In this document: positions 20,893-54,512 of the stretch, piece after piece | How the letters are laid out: every line of letters begins with the position of its first letter | How positions within the stretch are numbered: position 1 is the stretch's first letter | NCBI RefSeq assembly: GCF_000419605.1 | Contig: NZ_ATTI01000002.1 | Span: forward strand, 60,818 to 124,817 | Direction of reading: 5' to 3' | Origin: Sphingomonas phyllosphaerae 5.2 | GTDB taxonomy: Bacteria; Pseudomonadota; Alphaproteobacteria; Sphingomonadales; Sphingomonadaceae | DNA length: 64,000 nucleotides | Made by a program: the position numbers and the translations under genes | The notes under the pieces: generated by a model | The model's input: the letters and a program-made list of their open reading frames with translations, nothing else | Told to the model about the DNA's origin: nothing | Database searches by the model: none

Positions 20893-23160
20893 ATGAACGG
20901 ACACGATCGCCACGCGGGGCAACGCATCTCACGCCGCGCGATGCTGGCGGGCGCGGGCGCGACGCTCGCGTGGTCGGCCAGCCCGGCGCGCGCGCTGCTC
21001 GCTGCGGCCGGCGCGCGCCCGCTCCCGCCGGCGGTAGAGGCGTTGCTCGCGCGGATGACCGTCACCGAAAAGGCCGGGCAGCTCAACCTGCTCGCCGCCG
21101 CCTGGGCGGGCGGCGCGGCGGTGTCGCTCAATCCGGCGGGCGGCACGGCCAGCTTCGACGCGCAATTGCGCATGGTCCGCCGCGGCGAGCTGACCGGCGT
21201 GTTCAACGGCAATGGCGCGGGCATGGCGCGGCGGATGCAGACGGAGGCGATGCGCCGCTCGCGGCTGAAGATTCCGCTGCTGTTCGCGGCCGATGTCATC
21301 CACGGCCTGCGCACCGTCTTCCCGGTCCCGCTTGCCGAGGCGGCCAGCTTCGATCCCGAGCTGGCGCGGCGCACCGCGCGCGCCGCCGCGATCGAGGCGT
21401 CGGCATCCGGCATCGACTGGACCTTCGCGCCGATGGTCGACATCGCGCGCGACGCGCGCTGGGGGCGCGGCGTGGAGGGCGCGGGCGAGGACGTGTTGCT
21501 CGGGCGCATGATGGCGGCGGCGCGCGTGCGCGGCTTCCAGGGCGACGGGCTGTCCGCGCCGGATGCGGTCGCCGCCTGCGCCAAGCATTTCGTCGCTTAT
21601 GGCGCCGGCGAGGCCGGGCTCGACTACAATAGCGTCGACGTGTCGGAACGGACGTTGCGCGACATCTATTTCCCGCCGTTCCAGGCGGCGTTCGCGGCCG
21701 GCGCGCCGACCGTGATGGCGTCGTTCAACGACCTGTCCGGCGTGCCGGCGACCGCCAATCCGTGGCTGCTCGATACGATCCTGCGCCGCGAATGGGGGTT
21801 CGGCGGGCTGGTCGTCTCCGATTACACCGGCGACGAGGAACTGATCGCGCACGGGCTGGCCACGGATGCGCGCGACGCGACGAAGCTCGCCTTCCTCGCC
21901 GGTGTCGACATGTCGATGCAGAGCGGCTTCTACCTGCAGCACCTGCCCGACCTCGTCGCCAAGGGCGAGGTGCCGATGGCGCGGCTGGACGAGGCGGTGC
22001 GCCGCGTGCTCGCGCTCAAGGTCGCGCTCGGGCTGTTCGACGATCCGTTCCGGCGCATCGACCCCGCGCGCGAGAAGGCGCGGATCCGCACGCCGGAGAT
22101 GCTGGCGCTCGCACGCGAGGCCGGCGCGCGCAGCATCGTGATGCTCCGCAACGACGGCGGGCTGCTCCCCCTGCCCCGCACCGGCCGCAGGATCGCGCTG
22201 ATCGGACCGTTCGCCGGCGGGGGGCACGACCTGATCGGGCCGTGGAACGTCTATGGCACCGATCGCGAGGCGGTGGATCTGGCGACGGCGGTCCGCGCGA
22301 TCGTCCCCGATGTCACCGTCGACGATGGCAGCGACGTGGGCGCGGCGGTCGCGGCGGCGCGCGCGGCCGATGTCGTCGTGCTCGCGATCGGCGAGACGCA
22401 GGACATGTCGGGCGAGGCGCAGTCGCGCTCCGCCGTGGTCGTGCCGCCTGCGCAGCAGGCGCTGGCCGAGGCGATCGCCGCGACCGGCAAGCCCGTGGTG
22501 GTGCTGTTGCGCACCGGCCGTGCGCTCGCGCTGGCGGGCGCGGTGCGGGATGCGCCCGCGCTCCTGGTCACGTGGTTCCTCGGTTCGCAGGACGGCCCGG
22601 CGATCGCCGACGTGCTGTTCGGCGCGGTGTCGCCGTCGGCGCGGCTGCCGGTGTCCTTCCCGCGCGCGACCGGGCAGGTGCCTTATTATTACGCGCACCG
22701 CAGCACCGGCCGCCCCAACCCGCCCGGTGCGCTGCAACCCTACAAGACGCACTTCCGCGAACTTCCGAACAGCGCATTGTTCGCATTCGGGCACGGTCTG
22801 ACGTACGGAAAGATCGCCTATTCCGACCTTTCGCTCAGTAGCCGGACGCTCGGCGACGCGCCGCTCACGATCCGCGCCACCATCGCCAACAACGGCGCGG
22901 TCGCGGCGACCGAGGTGGTGCAGCTGTACGTCCACGACGTCGCCGCCAGCGTGACGCAGCCGGTGCGCGTCCTGAAGGCGTTCACCCGCGTCACGCTCGC
23001 GCCCGGCGAGCGGCAGGAGGTGCGCTTCACGCTCACCCGCGCCGATTTGTCCTTCACGGGTCGCGACTTGCGGCCGACCGTCGAACCCGGCGCCTTCCGC
23101 CTGTGGGTGGCGCCGTCCGCGGAGGCGGAGGGGCTGGCGGGGACGTTCATGCTGGCGTGA
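20893..23160 (+). CDS. GH3 beta-glucosidase, exported
   Basis: 755 residues. A twin-Arg-like signal ISRRAMLAGAGATLAWSAS starts the protein. Then the GH3 N-terminal barrel: LLARMTVTEKAGQLNLLAAA, PLLFAADVIHGLRTVFPVPL, WTFAPMVDIARDARWGRGVE, CAKHFVAYGAGEAG, and the nucleophile Asp in LVVSDYTGDEEL (about residue 312). The GH3 C-terminal domain follows (GARSIVMLRNDGGLLPLP) with an Fn3-like end (ATEVVQLYVHDVAASVTQPV). It releases glucose from beta-linked oligosaccharides in the periplasm. It is divergent from the LacI gene across a LacI-type operator and would finish degradation of GH144 products (inference). Confidence 0.93.
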   Translation: MNGHDRHAGQRISRRAMLAGAGATLAWSASPARALLAAAGARPLPPAVEALLARMTVTEKAGQLNLLAAAWAGGAAVSLNPAGGTASFDAQLRMVRRGELTGVFNGNGAGMARRMQTEAMRRSRLKIPLLFAADVIHGLRTVFPVPLAEAASFDPELARRTARAAAIEASASGIDWTFAPMVDIARDARWGRGVEGAGEDVLLGRMMAAARVRGFQGDGLSAPDAVAACAKHFVAYGAGEAGLDYNSVDVSERTLRDIYFPPFQAAFAAGAPTVMASFNDLSGVPATANPWLLDTILRREWGFGGLVVSDYTGDEELIAHGLATDARDATKLAFLAGVDMSMQSGFYLQHLPDLVAKGEVPMARLDEAVRRVLALKVALGLFDDPFRRIDPAREKARIRTPEMLALAREAGARSIVMLRNDGGLLPLPRTGRRIALIGPFAGGGHDLIGPWNVYGTDREAVDLATAVRAIVPDVTVDDGSDVGAAVAAARAADVVVLAIGETQDMSGEAQSRSAVVVPPAQQALAEAIAATGKPVVVLLRTGRALALAGAVRDAPALLVTWFLGSQDGPAIADVLFGAVSPSARLPVSFPRATGQVPYYYAHRSTGRPNPPGALQPYKTHFRELPNSALFAFGHGLTYGKIAYSDLSLSSRTLGDAPLTIRATIANNGAVAATEVVQLYVHDVAASVTQPVRVLKAFTRVTLAPGERQEVRFTLTRADLSFTGRDLRPTVEPGAFRLWVAPSAEAEGLAGTFMLA

Positions 23161-36885: not shown

Positions 36886-37947
36886 ATGACCACCACCGCC
36901 CACGGCTACGCCGCGCCGTCCGCCGATGCGCCGCTCGCCCCCTTCTCCTTCGAACGCCGCGACTGCCAAGCCGACGACGTCGCGATCGACATCCTGTTCT
37001 GCGGCGTCTGCCATTCCGACCTGCACACCGCGCGCGGCGAGTGGGACGGCACGCTCTATCCGTGCGTGCCCGGGCACGAGATCGTCGGGCGGGTCCGCGC
37101 GGTCGGCAGCGACGTGACCGGGTTCGCGATCGGCGACGTGGTCGGCGTCGGCTGCATGGTCGACAGTTGCGGACATTGCCCGTCGTGCAGCGAGGGCGAG
37201 GAGCAATATTGCGAGACCACCGGCTTCACCGGCACCTACAACGGGCCGGACCCGGTGCTGGGCGGGCATACCTTCGGCGGCTATTCCGACCAGATCGTCG
37301 TCAAGGAAAGCTTCGTCCTGAAGATCGGCCATGACGAGAAGGACCTCGCCGCGGTCGCGCCGCTGCTCTGCGCGGGCATCACCACCTATTCCCCGCTCAA
37401 GCACTGGAAGGTCGGGCCGGGCCAGAAGGTCGGCATTGTCGGGCTGGGCGGGCTCGGCCATATGGGCGTCAAGATCGCGGCGGCGATGGGCGCGGAGGTG
37501 CACGTCTTCTCGACCTCGCCGAACAAGCGCGAGGACGCCAGGCGGCTGGGCGCGACCGACCTGATCGTGTCGAAGGACGCCGACGCGATGGCCGCGCACG
37601 CGGGCACGTTCGACTTCATCCTGAACACCGTCGCCGCCAGCCACGACCTCGACGCGTTCCTGGTGCTGCTCAAGCGCGACGGGACGATGACGCTGGTCGG
37701 CGTGCCCGAGGAACCGCACCCCTCGCCGTCGGTCGGCAACCTCGTCTTCAAGCGCCGTGCGCTGGCCGGCTCGCTGATCGGCGGGATCGCCGAGACGCAG
37801 GAGATGCTCGACTTCTGCCGCGATCACGGGCTGGTCGCCGACATCGAGATGCTGGCGATGAAGGACATCGAGACCGGCTACGAGCGGATGCAGAAGAGCG
37901 ACGTGAAGTACCGCTTCGTCATCGACATGGCGACGCTCGACAAGTGA
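36886..37947 (+). CDS. NAD(P)-dependent zinc alcohol dehydrogenase
   Basis: 353 residues of the medium-chain, cinnamyl-alcohol-type family (YahK-like). The catalytic zinc ligands are Cys in FCGVCHSDLH (about 42), the PGHEIVGRV His-Glu pair (about 64) and a later Cys in LLCAGITTYSPL. The structural-zinc cysteines lie in DSCGHCPSCSEGEEQYC. The Rossmann motif is VGIVGLGGLGHMGVKIAAAM. It reduces aldehydes to alcohols or the reverse with NADP(H). ATG at 36886 with a weak CGAGGG site. It stands alone. Confidence 0.94.
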   Translation: MTTTAHGYAAPSADAPLAPFSFERRDCQADDVAIDILFCGVCHSDLHTARGEWDGTLYPCVPGHEIVGRVRAVGSDVTGFAIGDVVGVGCMVDSCGHCPSCSEGEEQYCETTGFTGTYNGPDPVLGGHTFGGYSDQIVVKESFVLKIGHDEKDLAAVAPLLCAGITTYSPLKHWKVGPGQKVGIVGLGGLGHMGVKIAAAMGAEVHVFSTSPNKREDARRLGATDLIVSKDADAMAAHAGTFDFILNTVAASHDLDAFLVLLKRDGTMTLVGVPEEPHPSPSVGNLVFKRRALAGSLIGGIAETQEMLDFCRDHGLVADIEMLAMKDIETGYERMQKSDVKYRFVIDMATLDK

Positions 37948-37992
37948 GAAACCGGGTCGGCGTGTCGCGATGTCGACACGTCGACCCTGTGC

Positions 37993-40982: not shown

Positions 40983-43082
40983 ATGACCGGCGTGGCGACG
41001 ACACCCCCGACACTCCCGACACGCCTCGCACCGCGAACGCCACGCGAATGGTTGCTGTGGGGCACGATCACGCTGCTGGGCGCCGGCGCGCTCGGCGTCG
41101 TGGCGCTCAGCCGCGGCGAGCCGGTCAACGCATTGTGGATCGTCACCGCGGCGCTGTGCACCTATCTCGTCGCCTATCGCTTCTACGGGCTGTTCATCGC
41201 CACGCGCGTGGCGCAGGTCGACCCGGCCCGCGCCACCCCGGCGGTGCGGCGCGCCGACGGGCTGGATTTCGTGCCGACCGACCGCAACGTGCTGTTCGGG
41301 CACCATTTCGCCGCGATCGCCGGTGCCGGCCCGCTGGTCGGCCCGGTGCTGGCGGCGCAGATGGGCTATCTGCCCGGCACCTTGTGGCTGCTGGTCGGGG
41401 TGGTGTTCGCGGGCGCGGTGCAGGATTTCCTGATCCTGTTCTTCTCGACGCGGCGCGATGCGCGCTCGCTGGGGGACATGATCCGCACCGAGATGGGGCG
41501 CGTGCCCGGCACGATCGCGCTGGTCGGCGTGCTCGCGATCATGGTCATCCTGCTCGCGGTGCTGGCGCTGGTGGTGGTGAAGGCGCTGGCCGACAGCCCG
41601 TGGGGCACGTTCACCGTCGCCGCGACGATCCCGATCGCGCTGCTGATGGGCGTCTACGGCCGCTTCGTCCGGCCCGGGCGGATCGCCGAAATGTCCGGCA
41701 TCGGCTTCGTGCTGTTGATGGCGGCGATCATGGGCGGGCAGCATGTCGCCGCCTCCCCTGCCCTCGCCCCGGTCTTCACGCTGACCGGGCCGACGCTGGC
41801 GCTGGCGTTGATGGCCTATGGGTTCATCGCCTCAGTGGTGCCGGTGTGGCTGCTGCTCGCGCCGCGCGATTACCTGTCAACCTTCCTGAAGGTGGGCGTG
41901 ATCGCGGGGCTGGCGCTGGGCATCCTGATCGTCCGGCCGGAGCTGAACATGCCGGCGGTCACGCGCTTCGTCGACGGCAGCGGACCGGCGTTCGCGGGCG
42001 CGCTGTTCCCGTTCCTGTTCATCACGATCGCGTGCGGCGCGGTATCGGGGTTCCACGCGCTGATCTCCAGCGGCACCACCCCCAAGATGATCGCGACCGA
42101 GGGCGACCTGCGCTTCATCGGCTATGGCGCGATGCTGACCGAGAGCTTCGTCGCGATCATGGCGCTGATCGCGGCGTGCGTGCTCGACCCGGCGGTCTAT
42201 TTCGCGATGAACGCGCCGGCTGCGCTGATCGGCACCGACGTGGCGAGCGCGGCGAAGGCGATCGGCGACTGGGGCTTCGCGATCCAGCCCGAGGCACTGT
42301 CGCAGATCGCGCGCGATGTCGGCGAGCGTACGATCCTGAGCCGTGCCGGGGGCGCGCCGACGCTGGCGGTGGGCATGGCGCACATCCTGAGCCGCGTGAT
42401 CGGCGGGCAGGCGTTGATGGCGTTCTGGTACCATTTCGCGATCCTGTTCGAGGCGCTGTTCATCCTGACCACCGTCGATGCCGGCACGCGCGTGGCGCGC
42501 TTCATGATCCAGGACCTGCTCGGCAGCGTGATCCCGGCGATGCGCGCGACCGAGAAACTGGCGCCGAACCTGATCGCGACCGCGCTGGCGGTGGGGGCGT
42601 GGGGCTGGTTCCTCTACCAGGGCGTCACCGACCCGCTGGGCGGGATCAACACGCTGTGGCCGCTGTTCGGCATCTCCAACCAGATGCTGGCCGCGATCGC
42701 GCTGGTGCTGGCGACCGTCATCCTGTTCCGCATGAAGCGGCAGCGTTATGCGTGGGTGACGATCGCACCGACGGTGTGGCTGCTGATCTGCACGCTGGTG
42801 GCGGGCTGGCAGAAGCTGTTCCACGCCGACCCGCGCATCGGCTTCCTGGCGCATGCCGACACCTTCGCGACCGCCATGGCGGAGGGGCGGCTGCTCGCCC
42901 CCGCGAAGACGCCGGCCGACATGGCGCGGATCGTGTTCAACGACCGCGTCGACGCCGCGGTGTGCGCGTTCTTCGTCGTGCTGGTGCTGGCGATCGTCGG
43001 CTACGGCGTGACGGTGGCGCGGCGCGCGCTGGCGAGCGAGCGCCCGACGGCGCAGGAGGTCGGCGATGTCGTGGTGGCGTAA
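40983..43082 (+). CDS. cstA: carbon-starvation protein A / BtsT-like pyruvate or peptide transporter
   Basis: 699 residues with about 16-18 membrane helices. CstA signatures: TYLVAYRFYGLFIATRVAQV, FGHHFAAIAGAGPLVGPVLA, AQMGYLPGTLWLLVGVVFAG, VQDFLILFFSTRRDARSLGD and GTTPKMIATEGDLRFIGYGA, plus LWPLFGISNQMLAAIALVLA. Family members import pyruvate or peptides in the inner membrane. The ATG at 40983 lies six bases after GAGAGG; the ATG at 40977 is nearly as good. It overlaps the ybdD gene by 17 bp, the conserved cstA-ybdD pair. Confidence 0.93.
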   Translation: MTGVATTPPTLPTRLAPRTPREWLLWGTITLLGAGALGVVALSRGEPVNALWIVTAALCTYLVAYRFYGLFIATRVAQVDPARATPAVRRADGLDFVPTDRNVLFGHHFAAIAGAGPLVGPVLAAQMGYLPGTLWLLVGVVFAGAVQDFLILFFSTRRDARSLGDMIRTEMGRVPGTIALVGVLAIMVILLAVLALVVVKALADSPWGTFTVAATIPIALLMGVYGRFVRPGRIAEMSGIGFVLLMAAIMGGQHVAASPALAPVFTLTGPTLALALMAYGFIASVVPVWLLLAPRDYLSTFLKVGVIAGLALGILIVRPELNMPAVTRFVDGSGPAFAGALFPFLFITIACGAVSGFHALISSGTTPKMIATEGDLRFIGYGAMLTESFVAIMALIAACVLDPAVYFAMNAPAALIGTDVASAAKAIGDWGFAIQPEALSQIARDVGERTILSRAGGAPTLAVGMAHILSRVIGGQALMAFWYHFAILFEALFILTTVDAGTRVARFMIQDLLGSVIPAMRATEKLAPNLIATALAVGAWGWFLYQGVTDPLGGINTLWPLFGISNQMLAAIALVLATVILFRMKRQRYAWVTIAPTVWLLICTLVAGWQKLFHADPRIGFLAHADTFATAMAEGRLLAPAKTPADMARIVFNDRVDAAVCAFFVVLVLAIVGYGVTVARRALASERPTAQEVGDVVVA

Positions 43083-43266
43083 TGTGGCGCACCGCGCCGT
43101 ACAGACCGCGCGGCTGATGGTGGGCGTGCCCGATTACGACGCCTATGTCGCGCATTGCACGACGCATCACCCCGATGCGCCGGTGCTGACGCGCGCCGAC
43201 TTCCACCGCAACCGCATCGAGCGCCGCTACGGCACCGGCAAGGACGCACCGCCGCGCTGTTGCTGA
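43066..43266 (+). CDS. ybdD: YbdD/YjiX-family (DUF466) small protein
   Basis: 66 residues: RAVQTARLMVGVPDYDAYVA, HCTTHHPDAPVLTRADFHRN and RIERRYGTGKDAPPRCC. The MVGVPDYDxYVxH and RxxxRYG parts are the DUF466 signature. These proteins always accompany CstA/BtsT transporters; the exact role is not established. Start overlaps the cstA end. Confidence 0.92.
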   Translation: MSWWRNVAHRAVQTARLMVGVPDYDAYVAHCTTHHPDAPVLTRADFHRNRIERRYGTGKDAPPRCC

Positions 43267-43271
43267 GGGGG

Positions 43272-43314
43272 CGCCCTGCCCTGCCCTGCCCTGCCCTGCC
43301 TTGCATTGCATTGC
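43272..43314 (+). repeat. pentanucleotide tandem repeat
   Basis: About five to six copies of CCTGC in a row, passing through TTGC into CATTG copies, just after ybdD. It is a simple-sequence tract that could change length by slippage; no coding role. Confidence 0.85.
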
Positions 43315-44896
43315 GATCTCCGGCCGCGGCGTCGGGCGGTTGCCGGGATGCTCTTGGGGAGGATCGATGTGTCGGCGCATGCTGCCGTGGTGTCGGCCGG
43401 GTGGCAAATCTTGCCGGCCGCGCGCTGGCCGCCCGGATGCGGCAGCGTCGCCGCGCTGGTGGTGCGCGACGGCGTTGCGCTCGGTGTCGCCTGGCGCGCG
43501 GATGGTGCGGCAGCGGCACGGGTGGCACGCCCCTCCCCTGCCCGCTTCGTCGGAGATACGCCGCAGCATCATCCCCGCGTGTGCCGACGTTCAGGACTTC
43601 CCCGCGATCTTGACGCCGCCTGCGCCATATTCCGCAGCCGTTCGGGTCGATCGATCCGGCGGTGGCTACGGCGCGGCGGCACGCATCGACGCGGCGCTGG
43701 TCAAGGCTCCCGATCTCGACCGCAGCGAGCTACGCGGCCGCATCGCGACGACCCCGTGTGCCCTGCTTCGGCGATTGCTGCGGGGCATCGGCATGGACGC
43801 TCCAAAGGCCGGATTGGAGGCGCTGCGAGGCGCGTCGACATCCACCACGCGGGACGGCGCGTACGGAGCCGCGGGGCTTACGTCCTGCACGAACCGCCGT
43901 CAGCCTGGTCACCGTCATGTCGTAGTGTCGAGATGTCTACGCCCCGACATGTATGCTCGACGTGGGCGTGCTGCTTGAACGCAACGTACGTGCCAGCCCG
44001 GACCTCGCCGCGCGTCTGTAAGCCCCCCGAGATCATGTCTGCATGTCGACACCTCGACAACGCGGCGCGTGTCCCCTGCCCTTCGGTCGCTTTATACGGC
44101 AGCATGGGAGCTCGCCGCCGCACGCGTTCGATGCGGAGCCCTGCTTCTTCATCGTCATTCGCTAGCGGGACCGCGGATCAGGTCGGGACGCCGGAGATCG
44201 GGGCGTCCGCGTCGCCTGGTCCGATGTGCTGATCTGAACGTTCCCGCCACAGGTTGTCTCGGTCGGTTGCGGCGGGGGTTCGCCACGAACAATCAGCGAC
44301 GTCCACATGTCTATATGTCGACCAGATCAGTGTCGACATATAGACATCCCGACAGGCTACCCCGAGGCGTCAGGGCGAGCGGCGGCCGTTCATGGCGCCG
44401 CCTGCACACGCGATCGGCACTTCCGCCTGCAAGGAGCCGGCGTCGACATACCGACGTGTCGGCGTGTCGACATGTTGGGCCGGCAGAGATCCCTCGCGGT
44501 GAGAGTGGCGGTTCGGATCGTCGTGGCCATGCGGGTGATGGGCTGTAGGAATGTCTGCATGTCGACACGCGTACAGGTCGGCAAGACGACACTTCGACAA
44601 GCCGTCCGCTTATGCCCGCGCATGGAGGCTGGTTGAGCGCCCGCGCTTATGCCCACGCCGACTTGAGGTAGACATGTCGAAATGCCGGCCTATCGACAAC
44701 GCGACACGTCGATATGTCGACATATTTGTGTTTGTTCGCGACCCCGATCCTGACGACGACATCGCGGCGGGCCCGCGTTCGCCGGCTGCGCTGCGCGTTT
44801 GACAGCGATAAGCCGCGCCCGGTAAAACGCCGGCCATGCGTATGCGATGGTCCGGGATGCTCAAGACGACCGCGCGATCCCGCCGCGCCACCGGCT
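43315..44896. other. gene-free region rich in TGTCGACA palindromes, candidate partition site
   Basis: About 1.6 kb in which the open frames are Arg/Ser-rich and carry no domain. It holds five exact TGTCGACA sites (about 44044, 44331, 44465, 44560, 44715) with many near-matches (TGTCGAGA, TGTCGAAA, CGTCGACA). TGTCGACA recurs at 47735 before parA, at 48369 and at 37971. Placed upstream of repA and tied to the parA region, this is most simply a centromere or operator array; see the 16-bp inverted repeat at 44307-44347. Confidence 0.55.
44307..44347. repeat. perfect 16-bp inverted repeat with TGTCGAC cores
   Basis: Left arm ATGTCTATATGTCGAC (44307-44322), spacer CAGATCAGT, right arm GTCGACATATAGACAT (44332-44347), the exact reverse complement. 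It is the longest palindrome noticed in the replicon core and contains the recurring TGTCGAC unit. It may be the main binding site of a partition or replication control protein. Confidence 0.85.
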
Positions 44897-44918
44897 TTTC
44901 CGCCCGAAAGCACGAAGA
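44897..44918 (+). repeat. iteron upstream of repA
   Basis: TTTTCCGCCCGAAAGCACGA then AG, one of about seven copies in the replicon. It lies 30 bp before the repA start, the usual place for autoregulatory Rep binding. Confidence 0.75.
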
Positions 44919-44948
44919 TCGCGCCGCGCGCAGGGCAGGGGCGCGCGC

Positions 44949-45839
44949 ATGACCAAGGTGATCCCGCCGCAGGGCGATCTGTTCCGGCTCGACAGCCCGT
45001 TGCTCGGCGACATCCAGGGCGAGCGCACCGTCGCCGAATTCCCGTTCTTCGCGCTGACCAAACGCGCGCAGATGGAGCCGATGACCTTCGAGAGCGAGAG
45101 CGCGCGGATCGATATCAACCCCAGCAAGACCGGGGTCGCGACGATCTACGACAAGGAAATCCTGCTCTATATCGCCAGCATCATGGTCGGGCGGCTGGAA
45201 GCGGGCGAGACGATCGACCGCACGCTCAGCTTCACCGCCAACGACCTGTTCCGCATGACCGGCACCAATGCCTCGGCGCGCTCCTATGCGTCGCTCAAGG
45301 CATCGCTGGCGCGATTGCAGGGCACGCAGATCATCACCAATATCGAGACGGGCGGGGAGGGGTCCGACAGCGCCTTCTCGTGGTTGCTCAAGGCCGACAT
45401 CAAATACACCAAGCTGCCGAACGGCGAGCGGCGGGTGAAGCACGTCGAGGTGATGCTGTGCGACTGGCTGCACCGCGCGATCCTGACCGACCGGCGGATC
45501 GCGGCCTATCACGACGATTTCTTCAAGCTGGGGCCGATCGAGCGGCGGCTCTACGAACTGGCCAAATTCAACTGCATCGACGGCACGCGCTTCGAGATCG
45601 ACGCGGTGGAGCTGGCGGGCAGGGTAGGGTGCTCGCTCGAACCGCGCTCGCTGGAGAACTTCCGCCGCACGCTGCGCGAGGTCGCACGGACGCAGTCGAT
45701 CCCGGAGTATTGGCTGACGCTGACCGACAGCAAGGAGCCGGCGCCGACCGGTGGGCGGCCCAAGCTGACCACGATGGTGACGATCGCGCCCGACGCGGCG
45801 TTGCAGTTCATCGGCCCGCCGACGCCGGCCGCGCACTGA
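44949..45839 (+). CDS. repA: plasmid replication initiator protein (RPA/RepA family)
   Basis: 296 residues. MTKVIPPQGDLFRLDSPLLG, then VAEFPFFALTKRAQMEPMTF and SARIDINPSKTGVATIYDKE with ILLYIASIMVGRLEAGETID. A winged-helix-like middle is ASARSYASLKASLARLQGTQ, and a later one LIERRLYELAKFN-like region GPIERRLYELAKFNCIDG. This is the PF10134-type initiator common on alphaproteobacterial plasmids. Iterons flank it on both sides (44897 and 45875-46170). ATG at 44949 was chosen because longer starts run through the iteron. It should bind the iterons and start replication. Confidence 0.88.
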   Translation: MTKVIPPQGDLFRLDSPLLGDIQGERTVAEFPFFALTKRAQMEPMTFESESARIDINPSKTGVATIYDKEILLYIASIMVGRLEAGETIDRTLSFTANDLFRMTGTNASARSYASLKASLARLQGTQIITNIETGGEGSDSAFSWLLKADIKYTKLPNGERRVKHVEVMLCDWLHRAILTDRRIAAYHDDFFKLGPIERRLYELAKFNCIDGTRFEIDAVELAGRVGCSLEPRSLENFRRTLREVARTQSIPEYWLTLTDSKEPAPTGGRPKLTTMVTIAPDAALQFIGPPTPAAH

Positions 45840-45874
45840 CGCCGCGATCGGCGCCGAACGGCGCCGTGCCGGGG

Positions 45875-46170
45875 TTTTCCGCCTGAAAGCACGAGGGAAT
45901 TCGGTTTCCCGCGCGATAGCACGAGCGGGCCGGCACGCCCCGAGTCGCAAGCGTGCGAGCAGTGTCGCCGGGCGCTGCAACGGCCAAACGGCGTCCGAAA
46001 TGACTTTCCCGCGCGATAATCGGCGCGGCGACCGCCGCTGCGGCGAGGTTTTCCGCCCGAAAGCACGAACGAAACGCGGTCTGACACTTGTCGCGCGGTG
46101 GCGCTGCGGCGGGTTTCCCGCCCGAAAGCACGAACATTGGTGAGATTTCCCGCCCGAAAGCACGAACATT
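45875..46170. repeat. iteron array, candidate origin of vegetative replication
   Basis: About six copies of a 22-bp unit with consensus TTTCCCGCCCGAAAGCACGA: near 45875, 45905, 46005 (partial), 46049, 46113 and 46146. The last two agree over 25 bp and continue ACATT. They sit between repA and repC with irregular spacing. This is the typical make-up of an iteron-regulated plasmid origin. Confidence 0.8.
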
Positions 46171-46270
46171 CGCGCTTTCCTACATCGGAACCGTCCGACA
46201 CAAACGATGCGATACGGCGATTGCGCTTTCGCAGACGCCCAGGGAAATGGCTGTGAGCACATAAACGAAT

Positions 46271-46290
46271 GCCCGGCACGAAGGCCGGGC
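46271..46290. repeat. GC hairpin GCCCGGC / GCCGGGC
   Basis: A 7-bp perfect stem with a 6-base loop, in the 275 bp between the iterons and repC. It has no clear T-run on either strand. Together with the hairpin at 46424-46439 it suggests structured RNA upstream of repC. Confidence 0.6.
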
Positions 46291-46423
46291 ACCCTTGAGA
46301 TTGTTATGTGGCAGCGTCGCCAAACGCTGACCGGTCACTAACGACGACCTCCACGTAGCGGTTTCCGAGCCTTGGTTCAAGGGAGCGCACTTCGCGCCAC
46401 GCTCTAGTTTTGCCTGCTGACGG

Positions 46424-46439
46424 CCCCTTCGCAAAGGGG
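46424..46439 (+). promoter_or_regulatory. hairpin covering the repC ribosome-binding site
   Basis: CCCCTT-cgca-AAGGGG; the right arm AAGGGG is the Shine-Dalgarno site seven bases before the repC ATG. Pairing would hide it, so repC translation is probably controlled, for instance by an antisense RNA or by upstream transcript length. Confidence 0.55.
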
Positions 46440-46446
46440 ACGAACG

Positions 46447-47688
46447 ATGAACTATGCCCAAACGGCCTTCACCGGCGCGACGGGGGCACGGCCGATCACC
46501 GCATGGTCGCGGCGGATCGTGCGCGATCTGGAGGCGCGGGCGCCGGACGCGGCCGATGTCGAGCGCAACCGGCTCTATGCCGTACTCGACGGCGCGCGGC
46601 TCGCGCTGCGGCTCGGCACGCCCGCGCTCGAGACGCTCAAGCATCTGATCGGCTATACGCGCCCCGACGACTGGAAGGGCGAGCGCCGGCCGCTGGCGTG
46701 GCCCAGCAACTATACGCTCGCCGAGCGCGCCGGCGTGACGGAGAGCGCGATCAAGGCGCGGCTGCGGCAATTGCGTGCGCTGGGGCTGGTCGCGGCGCAC
46801 GACAGCGCGCACGGACGGCGCACGGGTCGCCGCGACGCGGACGGCACGATCACCAGCGGCTACGGCCTCGATTTGTCGCCGCTGCGGATCCGCTTCGACG
46901 AATTGTGCGCGCTGGCCGATGCGCAGACCGCGCAATCCCGGCTGTTCCGCGAAGGGCGGCAGGCGATCGCGCGCGGACGGCGGCTGGTCGGTCAGGTGCT
47001 CGCGCAGGCTGCCGACCTGCGGTTGACCGGCGCGCACTGGATGGCGCTGCAGGACACGCTCGACCGGATCGCGGACGATGCGGCGCAGGCGCGGGCCGCG
47101 CGGGACAGCGCGGCGTTTCGGCAGGCGCTGGAATGCCTGCCGGCGCTGGAGCGGGCGGTTGGCGCGACGATCGATACCTTTATGTTTCAATCTGAAAATG
47201 ACGGGTCGGGGTCAAAATATGCGCCCGACATACATATACAAACCAACCCCTATCCTGACTCCGTACCATGCGATCGGGAGCGTAGTTCTGTGCCGCGCCC
47301 GGACGATCCCGCCGCAGCGACGCTTCCGGCATCGCCGTCGCGCAGCGTCTTCAAGGCTCATGCGGTCGACATGATCGCGATGTTCCCGGCCGCGGCGATG
47401 TATGTGACTGCAAGCCCGCCGCGCTGGCCCGATCTCCACGCCGCGGCCGCGCGGCTCCGTCACGATCTCGGGGTGCGCACCGCGACGTGGGTGGATGCCG
47501 TCGAGCGACTGGGGCGCGACGGGGCGACGGTGGCGATGCTGATCACCGCCGAGCGGCAGGCACGCCACGAGATCCGGCAGACCGCCGGCGCCTATTTCGC
47601 CGGCATGATCGCCAAGGCGGCGCGCGACGAGCTCGATCTCGGGCGCAGCCTGTGGGGATTCCGGACCGAAGCGAGCGCCGATCATTGA
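46447..47688 (+). CDS. repC: RepC-like plasmid replication protein
   Basis: 413 residues. The N-terminal domain has PITAWSRRIVRDLEARAPDA, GTPALETLKHLIGYTRPDDW and a winged-helix AWPSNYTLAERAGVTESAIK, RLRQLRALGLVAAHDSAHGR, as in RepC/replication protein C. A variable linker (about 225-290) precedes the C-terminal helical domain PPRWPDLHAAAARLRHDLGV, TWVDAVERLGRDGATVAMLI, QTAGAYFAGMIAKAARDELD, also found in RepC. It is expected to act at the origin. SD in a hairpin. Follows the iterons; parA is 77 bp downstream. Confidence 0.85.
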   Translation: MNYAQTAFTGATGARPITAWSRRIVRDLEARAPDAADVERNRLYAVLDGARLALRLGTPALETLKHLIGYTRPDDWKGERRPLAWPSNYTLAERAGVTESAIKARLRQLRALGLVAAHDSAHGRRTGRRDADGTITSGYGLDLSPLRIRFDELCALADAQTAQSRLFREGRQAIARGRRLVGQVLAQAADLRLTGAHWMALQDTLDRIADDAAQARAARDSAAFRQALECLPALERAVGATIDTFMFQSENDGSGSKYAPDIHIQTNPYPDSVPCDRERSSVPRPDDPAAATLPASPSRSVFKAHAVDMIAMFPAAAMYVTASPPRWPDLHAAAARLRHDLGVRTATWVDAVERLGRDGATVAMLITAERQARHEIRQTAGAYFAGMIAKAARDELDLGRSLWGFRTEASADH

Positions 47689-47708
47689 ACGATCCGCGGG
47701 GAAAACGC

Positions 47709-47760
47709 CGTGTCGACGCGCATTCATGTTGCCATGTCGACATCGCGACATGTAGGGAAT
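47709..47760. promoter_or_regulatory. TGTCGAC-type sites in front of parA
   Basis: TGTCGACG at 47711, TGTCGACA at 47735 and GCGACATGT just after lie within 55 bp of the parA start; the ATG itself is inside a CGACATG repeat. The pattern suits autoregulation of the par operon by its own DNA-binding protein. Confidence 0.6.
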
Positions 47761-47765
47761 GCGAC

Positions 47766-48422
47766 ATGCCGACGATCGCGATCATCAGCCAGAAGGGCGG
47801 AGCGGGGAAGACCACGGTGGCGCTGCACCTCGCCGCCGCGGCGCAGGATGCCGGGCGCGTGTCGCTCGTCATCGACACCGACCCGCAGGCCACCGCCAGC
47901 CAATGGGCCGCGTGGCGCCAGGACCAGCCGCCGGAGGTGATCGACAGCCCGCCGCCCCGGCTCGCCGCCAAGATCGCCCAGGCCACCGAGCAGGGCGCGG
48001 AAGTGATCGTGATCGACACGCCGCCACACGCCGACAGCGCCGCGCGCGCCGCGGTCGAGGTCGCCGATCTGGTGCTGATCCCGTGCCGTCCCAGCGCCTT
48101 CGATCTCGCCGCGATCCAGACCAGTGCCAAGCTGGTGCAGCTGCTGCGCAAACCGGCCTTCGTGGTGTTCAGCGCCGGCAGCCCCAATGCGCCGCGCATC
48201 TATGCCGAGGCCGGCGAACTGGTCGAAAGCTATGGCACGCCGGCCTGCCCGGTGCTGCTGCCGGATCGTGCCGCGTTCCGCCACGCCAGCGCCGAGGGCC
48301 GCACCGTCATGGAGACCGAGCCGTCGGGCCGCGCCGCGCAGGACGTCCGCGAATTGTACAAATGGGTGTGTCGACAGCTCGACATGCCGACACCGCGTTT
48401 CCGCAAGAAGGTCGCCGCATGA
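47766..48422 (+). CDS. parA: ParA-type partition ATPase
   Basis: 218 residues. Deviant Walker A KGGAGKTTVALHLAAAA at 12-28 with PTIAIISQ in front, Walker A' region VSLVIDTDPQATASQWAAWR, and AEVIVIDTPPHADSAARAAV. There is no N-terminal DNA-binding domain, so it is the small (type Ib) ParA that works with a small centromere-binding protein. Starts ATG 47766, AGGGA upstream. Its end overlaps the RHH-like gene by 4 bp. It powers plasmid segregation on the nucleoid. Confidence 0.93.
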   Translation: MPTIAIISQKGGAGKTTVALHLAAAAQDAGRVSLVIDTDPQATASQWAAWRQDQPPEVIDSPPPRLAAKIAQATEQGAEVIVIDTPPHADSAARAAVEVADLVLIPCRPSAFDLAAIQTSAKLVQLLRKPAFVVFSAGSPNAPRIYAEAGELVESYGTPACPVLLPDRAAFRHASAEGRTVMETEPSGRAAQDVRELYKWVCRQLDMPTPRFRKKVAA

Positions 48423-48769
48423 GCCGCAAGCCCAGTTTCGCCAATTTGCGCGGCGCAGCGACCCCGTCGCCCGCCGCTGCGCCGGCACCACGCGTCAAGG
48501 CGACGCCAGCTCCGACCTCGGCCCCGGCCCCGGCCGCGGCGCCGACCTCGCCCGCGGTTGCGGCGCCGCCGCCCGCACCCGCGCCGGTCGCCGCGACGCG
48601 CCCGGTCAGCCGCGAGGGTCGCAAGCAGATCGCGGGCTTCTTCTCGCCCGACATGTCGCTGGCGATGCACATGCTCGCGCGGCGACAGGGGCGCAGCCTC
48701 CAGGCGTTGATGGCCGAGGCGTTCAACGACGTGCTGCGCAAGCACGGTGAAAGCCCGATCGGCGATTGA
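48419..48769 (+). CDS. ribbon-helix-helix-like ParB-type partition protein
   Basis: 116 residues. The first about 60 are almost all Ala and Pro (SPAAAPAPRVKATPAPTSAP and more), a disordered arm. The C-terminal half GRKQIAGFFSPDMSLAMHML, ARRQGRSLQALMAEAFNDVL, RKHGE is a beta-helix-helix ribbon fold, and the position after a type Ib parA makes it the centromere-binding partner. The arm could stimulate ParA or link sites. The TGTCGACA palindromes are candidate targets (inference). Confidence 0.75.
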   Translation: MSRKPSFANLRGAATPSPAAAPAPRVKATPAPTSAPAPAAAPTSPAVAAPPPAPAPVAATRPVSREGRKQIAGFFSPDMSLAMHMLARRQGRSLQALMAEAFNDVLRKHGESPIGD

Positions 48770-48837
48770 ACCGCGCGGGCAGGGGCCCCGATCGCGGTAC
48801 GCTGCGTTGACAGTGGCACCAGCAACCGGAGCCCGCC

Positions 48838-48933
48838 ATGACCGATCCCGACGACCTGCCGCGCGACGACGAGCACGAAATGCCCGCCGATCTTCCCGAC
48901 GACCCCGCCGAGGAGCTGGGCGATTTCGCCTGA
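48838..48933 (+). CDS. very small acidic protein
   Basis: 31 residues: MTDPDDLPRDDEHEMPADLP, DDPAEELGDFA. CCGGAG lies six bases before the ATG. Nearly half of the residues are Asp or Glu. It is too short for certainty and has no known relatives in my memory, but the site and codon use suit a real gene. Confidence 0.4.
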   Translation: MTDPDDLPRDDEHEMPADLPDDPAEELGDFA

Positions 48934-49009
48934 TATCGGCGCCTGATACTGGAGACCGATAACGGTCCGGTCGGCAGGGCAGGGGGCGTAGTGACGCTCC
49001 CCCGTGTCC

Positions 49010-54242: not shown

Positions 54243-54512
54243 GTGACGTTCGATCCGCTCCCCTACGATCCCGTCGAACTGGTCGCGTGCAACCCGGCGC
54301 GCGGCGTCCACCGCCGCTGGCGGCTGCAGGCGATGCGCGACCTGTTCGGGCGCGTGGTGGTGGAGACGGCGTGGGGGCGGATCGGTGCGCCGGGTCGCAC
54401 GCTGATGCGCAGTTTCGCGCACGAGGACGATGCGCGGCGCTATGTCCGCGCGCTCCTGCGGCGTCGCGCAGGCGCACCGCGCCGGATCGGTACCGACTAT
54501 CGGCAGGCCTGA
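54243..54512 (+). CDS. WGR-domain protein
   Basis: 89 residues. RRWRLQAMRDLFGRVVVETA, WGRIGAPGRTLMRSFAHEDD and ARRYVRALLRRRAGAP: this is the WGR domain named after its Trp-Gly-Arg and found in PARPs and in bacterial stand-alone proteins, possibly nucleic-acid binding. GTG start at 54243 after AAGGAGG (54229-54235). An upstream extension exists but lacks the site. Confidence 0.88.
   Translation: MTFDPLPYDPVELVACNPARGVHRRWRLQAMRDLFGRVVVETAWGRIGAPGRTLMRSFAHEDDARRYVRALLRRRAGAPRRIGTDYRQA

Follow-up and report, generated by a model that had tools for sequence, protein, structure and literature searches.

Background

Ribbon-helix-helix (RHH) centromere binders are a small and diverse kind of protein, and to our knowledge few partition systems exist in which the repeats that they read have been determined; MetJ, the methionine repressor, is likewise an RHH protein. 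Here, we describe the replication and partition locus of a 64,000-nucleotide stretch (hereafter the window) of contig NZ_ATTI01000002.1 from Sphingomonas phyllosphaerae 5.2, in which contiguous copies of an 8-bp palindromic box, TGTCGACA, lie around the genes repA, parA, and parB and, as we read the sequence, most likely provide both the centromere and the gene switch for a small plasmid-partition protein, ParB. An earlier reading of the bare DNA (the original prediction) had proposed a centromere or operator family that is not of the repABC parS type and is tied to the RHH-like partner of ParA.

Partition systems of the type Ib kind are already known. In the delta-omega-parS system of pSM19035, a ParA and an RHH ParB act at several sites of contiguous short repeats that overlap the promoters of copS (copy control) and of the par genes, with each omega dimer binding one 7-bp repeat and at least four contiguous repeats needed for ParA activation (PMC9499535). 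The window resembles pSM19035 in this architecture, but the pSM19035 sites each hold 7 to 10 copies of the non-palindromic 7-bp WATCACW, whereas the window's unit is the 8-bp palindrome TGTCGACA, mostly three to seven per array, and one of its arrays lies inside the parA coding sequence. The type Ib systems TP228 ParFG and pCXC100 ParAB are also alike in description, as both have an RHH centromere binder with an unstructured N-terminal domain that is also a repressor and a site upstream of the par operon, which in pCXC100 consists of direct repeats only (PMC5016525).

Outside partition, each 8-bp met box takes one MetJ dimer, with a requirement for at least two neighbouring sites (PMC3228920). 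The palindromic 8-bp boxes in adjacent copies recall this arrangement, but MetJ has a different box and no ParA partner, and the analogy is one of architecture only. Two alphaproteobacterial systems also bear comparison. The par module of the Paracoccus plasmid pMARC3 is type Ib according to its authors, with a predicted site in the parA promoter, but that site is composed of three non-identical 13-bp repeats and the word "ribbon" is absent from the text (PMC3832669). Replicons of the repABC kind, like the window, are alphaproteobacterial and carry a RepC protein beside the partition genes, but their parS is the palindrome GTTNNNNGCNNNNAAC (PMC9040568).

Contiguous 8-bp boxes at the partition locus

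Exact copies of TGTCGACA occur nine times in the window (at 21903, 37971, 44044, 44331, 44465, 44560, 44715, 47735, and 48369), compared with a mean of 0.94 and a maximum of 3 in shuffled windows, none of 100 of which reached nine; the shuffle mean, at a GC content of 67.4%, agrees with the original estimate of less than one chance occurrence in 64 kb at about 67% GC. Seven of the nine are confined to 44044-48376: five precede repA, another lies 31 bp ahead of the parA ATG (47766), and the seventh is at parA+603. These are the seven sites within about 4.5 kb that had been predicted, and their placing, together with that of a further site at 37971, was correct, but the site at 21903 had been overlooked. 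Allowing one mismatch gives 50 window sites against 25.7 expected.

Across the whole 3.92-Mb genome, 78 exact copies were counted, 11 on the 124,817-bp contig that carries the window and, by subtraction, 67 on the 3.80-Mb contig. Because the latter amounts to about one copy per 57 kb, against seven in 4.5 kb at the locus, the objection foreseen at the outset, that the motif might be equally common elsewhere in the genome, fails. A pattern of two adjacent boxes with at most two mismatches was found at 13 sites genome-wide, all 13 on the 125-kb contig; at three mismatches, a further 19 appeared on the large contig and four on the small one, and the reversed control pattern occurred once in the genome at up to three mismatches.

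The predicted cluster of palindromes is real, but the true unit is larger than had been seen: TGTCGACA is the best copy of an 8-bp box that is repeated head to tail, without spacers, in a strict 8-bp register. Between 43900 and 44760, 26 sites match at least six of the eight positions, and the distances between them are 8 bp (n = 13), 16 bp (n = 8), 24 bp (n = 5), and 32 bp (n = 3), with 0-3 pairs at every other distance up to 32 bp (three at 31 bp, two at 23 bp). The 13 adjacent pairs compare with a mean of 0.04 and a maximum of one across 2000 shuffles that keep the dinucleotide counts.

By match count, the arrays (all listed without strand) occupy three settings, namely the region ahead of repA, the start of parA, and the 3′ end of the parA reading frame, with three to seven boxes each at a threshold of at least five of eight matches, if a weak box at 44568 and weak ones within 47711-47734 are allowed. 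Seven short arrays fall in the 0.8 kb upstream of repA. The first, at 43918-43949, is a weak one of four in-phase boxes (TGTCGTAG TGTCGAGA TGTCTACG CCCCGACA; array score 23.4), and it is followed by three boxes at 44036-44059 (exact box at 44044), three at 44300-44323 (CGTCCACA TGTCTATA TGTCGACC, absent among the model-scored arrays), three at 44331-44354 (exact at 44331), and four at 44441-44472 (exact at 44465). Seven in-phase boxes lie at 44544-44599 (exact at 44560), which count as one array by model score and as two arrays of three by match count, since the fourth box (44568) has only four of eight matches; the last array, found by both measures, holds seven boxes at 44667-44722 (exact at 44715) and ends 226 bp before the repA ATG. 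A putative operator array of in-phase boxes, likewise supported by match count and model score, spans 47711-47774 (exact at 47735, i.e., parA -31) and includes the parA ATG, and three in-phase boxes at 48369-48392 (parA+603) lie within the parA coding sequence, ending 26 bp before the parB ATG. The two-box scan and match counts also gave an outlying array, TGTCGCGA TGTCGACA CGTCGACC, at 37963-37986, just past an open reading frame (ORF) ending at 37947, and an outlying pair, TGTCGACA TGTCGATG, at 21903-21918 within overlapping ORFs, the longest of 755 aa (20893-23160). A further outlying site lies at position 54419 of the 125-kb contig.

Partition proteins of the locus

The parA gene (47766-48422, plus strand) encodes a 218-aa ParA-family partition ATPase that matches the NF041546 equivalog model at 203.3 bits (cut-off 180; match 3-200) and carries a Walker-type KGGAGKTT motif at its N-terminus, which leaves no room for an N-terminal DNA-binding domain, as is the rule for the short ParAs of type Ib. 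Overlapping it by 4 bp, parB (48419-48769, plus strand) encodes 116 aa with a conserved N-terminal MSRK, a variable linker, and a C-terminal RHH domain (PF20605, residues 65-114, 78.9 bits against a cut-off of 27.2) whose beta strand reads R68-K-Q-I-A-G-F-F75; searches against Pfam at E up to 0.1 gave no other family. It is thus the small downstream partner with a C-terminal RHH domain that type Ib calls for, the N-terminal divergence of such partners being represented by a linker that varies between conserved ends, and repeats are present upstream of the par operon. Because a short ParA, an RHH partner, and contiguous repeats at the par promoter region and near a rep gene occur together, the locus matches the type Ib plan, and its sequence is best read as that of a type Ib system whose parS/operator arrays resemble met boxes in their 8-bp unit. 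ParB is very probably the binder of the boxes, a judgement that also takes in the case where they act as operators only. In Sphingobium amiense pSAMIE_4, a second small RHH protein follows shortly after parB (L099:6288-6479).

Box sequence and ParB class in related loci

Twelve plasmid stretches, the best 80 of 145 genome loci, and the window made up a sample of 93 stretches, 92 of which (all but L082) contain a parA-parB pair. Classing by the ParB beta strand gave class I (R-K-Q-I/V-A-G-F-F; 65 pairs including the window), class II (K-K-A-M/I-T-G-Y-F; nine pairs), and class III (R-K-A-I-(A/S)-(A/G)-Y-F; 16 pairs), with two pairs (L062 and L067) unclassed, their ParB start not having been located by the script. 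Tandem 8-bp boxes flank parA across the pairs, and their sequence tracks the ParB RHH class. Within the parA flanks, defined as the 120 bp preceding the gene together with its last 75 bp, a motif-free autocorrelation of 3-mers peaked at 8, 16, and 24 bp in all three classes, the matches at 8 bp numbering 873 in class I (vs 121-216 at distances of 4-23 bp except 8 and 16), 150 in class II (vs 2-35 at the other distances of 4-23 bp), and 248 in class III (vs 7-60).

Exact TGTCGACA is present in these flanks in 61 of 65 class I, 0 of 9 class II, 0 of 16 class III, and 0 of 2 unclassed pairs, while TGCAAACA occurs in 8 of 9 class II pairs and in no other class, and TGTGAACA in 13 of 16 class III, 3 of 9 class II, and 0 of 65 class I pairs. 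A larger set without identical ParAs, which includes a fourth class, gave the same trend for exact TGTCGACA (60/63 class I, 0/13 class II, 2/23 class III, 0/4 class IV, and 0/6 other), and because two of its class III pairs hold TGTCGACA, the boxes are graded rather than absolute. The position is also conserved in class I (n = 65): exact boxes stand at parA+603 in 53 loci, at -23 in 27, and at -31 in six; 55 loci have one at parA+603 or at -23/-31, and 33 at -23 or -31. In 20 of the 65, no similar repA lies within the fetched stretch, and all 20 have an exact box near parA.

The box within parA allows codon usage to be examined. At codons 202-204, 50 of 60 class I genes read TGT CGA followed by CAG or CAA, and of the 57 genes with an arginine at codon 203, 54 use CGA for it, compared with 59 of 775 arginine codons elsewhere in the same genes; in the other three genes a leucine CTA replaces the arginine and a box-like TGTCTACA is kept. 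These counts, which are inflated by shared ancestry, cover 60 of the 65 class I loci, with L041, L045, and L047 left out for their start codon, L052 for start codon and length, and L027 for its 624-bp parA, which falls below the script's minimum of 627 bp. Class II genes carry boxes of their own at the same in-frame place (TGCGAGCA TGTAAACA TGCAAGCA in L010 and L011). With CGA codons going with the box, selection at the DNA level probably acts within the 3′ end of the parA coding sequence.

Beyond the flanks, runs of at least three class I boxes lie outside the parA-parB block in 34 of 65 class I loci, compared with 0 of 65 shuffled copies (permuting non-overlapping dinucleotides). Four close relatives (L017, L018, L054, and L076), whose repA is 91-95% identical to that of the window, have three to eight arrays each in the 1.1-2.5 kb fetched before repA. 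Little of the 1.1-2 kb preceding repA in these four can be aligned with the window; an iteron-bearing stretch (44893-44935) is matched in all of them, and L017 alone has two further matched stretches, both holding arrays.

The same par module was also seen on chromosome-size contigs, in L049 (1.76 Mb), L076 (3.66 Mb), L131 (G677:C1, near 1.31 Mb), and L132 (G460:C1, near 1.86 Mb), and given that contig size these modules may belong to integrated plasmids. Some genomes hold several ParB relatives, with five in G708 and two in G602 on one contig, 38 kb apart.

Predicting the box from ParB

The 90 classed pairs served to train box models, which were then tried on a second, later set of pairs. Among 42 later loci (L098-L139), three had no pair (L100, L104, and L137); from the remaining 39 we removed 15 that share a 300-bp parA stretch with a training locus, one duplicate (L124), and six to which the rule gave no class (L098 and L105-L109), leaving 17 (one class I, five class II, seven class III, and four class IV). 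Class IV (K-K-A-V-S-A-Y-F) was assigned to the class III model by its A-S-Y residues. By the sum of the two parA flanks, the predicted model was best in 17 of 17, the single class I case (L115) by a narrow margin (36.4 vs 32.4). Among the training loci, the model of a locus's own class scored highest in 60 of 65 class I, 9 of 9 class II, and 16 of 16 class III cases. Sphingomonas taxi ATCC 55669 provides both kinds within one strain, and the flank sums favour the predicted model on each of its two plasmids: STP1 (L006, class I) scores 33.6 + 14.3 (sum 47.9) with model I against 6.1 + 20.0 (26.1) with model III, and STP2 (L102, class IV) scores 0 + 0.6 (0.6) against 18.7 + 20.2 (38.9).

Box identity appears to go with three beta-strand residues predicted to face the DNA, 70, 72, and 74, with Q-A-F paired with TGTCGACA, A-T-Y with TGYRARCA-like boxes, and A-(A/S)-Y with TGTSNACA-like boxes. 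The class IV ParBs show only 44-48% RHH-core identity with the others and still score best with the class III model, whose ParBs share their A-(A/S)-Y residues, while the ParA tree (from which ParAs that were identical or of odd size had been dropped) joins class IV to class I and not to class III, with moderate support (90/74) and on a long branch. Conversely, the class III ParB of L075 is 83% identical to the window's in its core and has class III boxes. From these two cases, the box would seem to follow residues 70, 72, and 74 better than overall similarity. A Novacetimonas ParB (L098) has the residues A-V-Y and, by eye, other, AT-richer boxes spaced at 8 bp around parA (summed scores of 28.0 with model II and 22.6 with model III); A-V-Y is possibly a further letter of such a code.

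Replication genes, iterons, and leader

By profile match, repA (44949-45839, plus strand) encodes a replication initiator (RPA, PF10134) and a repC-like gene (46447-47688, plus strand) a replication protein (RP-C PF03428 and RP-C_C PF11800). The stretch at 44893-44926 (plus strand), matched in L017, L018, L054, and L076, contains one RepA-type iteron before repA, which is not a TGTCGACA box, and further iterons (TTTCCCGCCCGAAAGCACGAA and variants; no strand assigned) can be read from the sequence at 45870-46180, after repA and apart from the boxes. We infer that RepA would bind the TTTCCCGCCCGAAAGCACGAA iterons.

The leader before repC (46216-46460) is conserved and non-coding, with similar sequence in 40 of 93 stretches (window included) and no annotated feature there in several plasmids. 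Its minus strand folds at -63.1 kcal/mol over 161 bases (a figure without shuffle control) and includes a terminator-like hairpin at 46294-46267, although such matches are no more frequent than in shuffles. Plasmids of the repABC kind have an antisense copy-control RNA, and the minus strand of this leader is perhaps another. An Rfam scan of 43000-49000, which takes in the leader, gave no matches up to E = 1.

Discussion

We infer that ParB would bind the boxes, repress from them, and partition the plasmid through them. One ParB dimer would occupy each 8-bp palindromic box, with dimers packing on contiguous boxes in the manner of MetJ along its met boxes and of omega along its 7-bp heptads. Repression of the parAB operon would then come from the array over the parA start, and the seven arrays upstream of repA would form the centromere (parS) at which ParB captures ParA; they may also be a control site for repA, which ParB possibly represses. 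In the cycle we propose, ParB would coat the arrays, its N-terminal tail would activate ParA, and the plasmid copies would separate.

The most serious rival to a combined centromere and switch, itself unlikely, is that the boxes are only transcriptional operators through which ParB controls parAB and repA, with the true centromere elsewhere. The arrays do overlap the parA start, precede parB, and sit upstream of repA, and two of the three ParB classes show clear arrays just at the parAB operon. However, the class I relatives retain multiple arrays ahead of repA despite turnover of the intervening sequence, and the number of arrays there exceeds what one promoter should need. In pSM19035, moreover, the promoter-overlapping repeats are also its centromere (PMC9499535).

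We consider it improbable that the boxes are RepA or RepC binding sites belonging to the origin of replication. Such a role would fit the placing of five exact sites and seven arrays in the last 1 kb or so before repA, but iterons of different sequence already surround repA, one such stretch being matched in four relatives, and the boxes go with the ParB class. Exact boxes at parA in the 20 class I loci without a similar repA in the fetched stretch also speak against it, even if a more distant repA is possible there. Still less probable are sites of a host-encoded regulator acting on several plasmids: the 3.80-Mb contig does carry its 67 single exact boxes, but no double box at up to two mismatches, and the two S. 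taxi plasmids carry different boxes in one strain, each scoring best with its own ParB's model. A chance or low-complexity repeat without function has nothing we saw in its favour, has a negligible probability, and is contradicted by the conservation at fixed positions, the CGA codon bias, the shuffle counts, the double-box scan, the autocorrelation, the class link, and the held-out test.

Two known systems were also set aside. The repABC parS does not fit, with 0 exact matches to its consensus in 64 kb where 0.69 would be expected by chance, and pYAN-2 is a different case, since there a 37-bp cis region stabilises the plasmid and the genes listed include neither parA nor parB (PMC4041236). 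With no repABC parS match in the window and iterons of another sequence present, with boxes at parA also in loci without a similar repA, and with box sequence going with the RHH class of ParB, the original prediction of a centromere or operator family outside the repABC parS type and tied to an RHH partner is supported at the level of sequence.

Several observations weigh against a ParB-read centromere and switch, or against the residue rule built on it. As to the arrays, four of the seven upstream of repA have only three clear boxes or two runs of three, and pSM19035 requires at least four contiguous repeats; a promoter scan of 43800-49000 found no promoter-like sites (0.6 in shuffles); and a search of solved structures with the ParB profile gave no hits up to E = 1. 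Among relatives, four of 65 class I loci lack an exact box in either parA flank, and outlying arrays are confined to class I (1/9 in class II, as in 1/9 shuffled copies, and 0/16 in class III), while outside parAB in class I loci model III also finds runs in 19 of 65 and model II in five of 65. Models I and III are close, and five of 65 class I training loci favour another model (four model III and one model II), four of them by 1.1 or less and L020 by 9.8 (48.6 vs 38.8); one locus, L052, has a misread parA. The boxes at the parA end, taken alone, score higher with model III than with model I in both L115 (20.6 vs 14.3) and STP1 (20.0 vs 14.3), and the held-out loci cannot be treated as independent of the clades used for training. 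It is by the usual RHH pattern that residues 70, 72, and 74 are taken to face the DNA. Finally, the ParB classes are nearly clades, with five label changes on the ParA tree, and because these are few independent events we put the residue rule forward as a hypothesis.

An 8-bp palindromic unit in a ParA-RHH system, a site embedded in parA, and a link between box and residues were not found in the literature searched, which leaves most subscription journals outside. A text search of it returned no paper combining ribbon-helix-helix, partition, centromere, plasmid, and Sphingo-, and a search for TGTCGACA as a text string gave no title on partition among the matches listed.

Conclusions

Together, these comparisons lead us to propose an RHH-centromere recognition code, to which we give an even chance of being right, in which ParB residues 70, 72, and 74 would determine which tandem 8-bp box serves as the centromere in a plasmid family of sphingomonads and acetic acid bacteria and so may sort these plasmids into compatible partition groups; in each class, part of the site would be locked in the end of parA. 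The presence of several ParB relatives in one genome raises the question of how interference between them is avoided. About 100 natural pairs allow the protein class and the box sequence to be read jointly, and with these ParB-box pairs the choice of centromere by an RHH partition protein, and the compatibility of plasmids of one family in one cell, could be tested directly and cheaply. If the rule holds, it would also make partition sites easier to locate on unannotated plasmids of sphingomonads and acetic acid bacteria.

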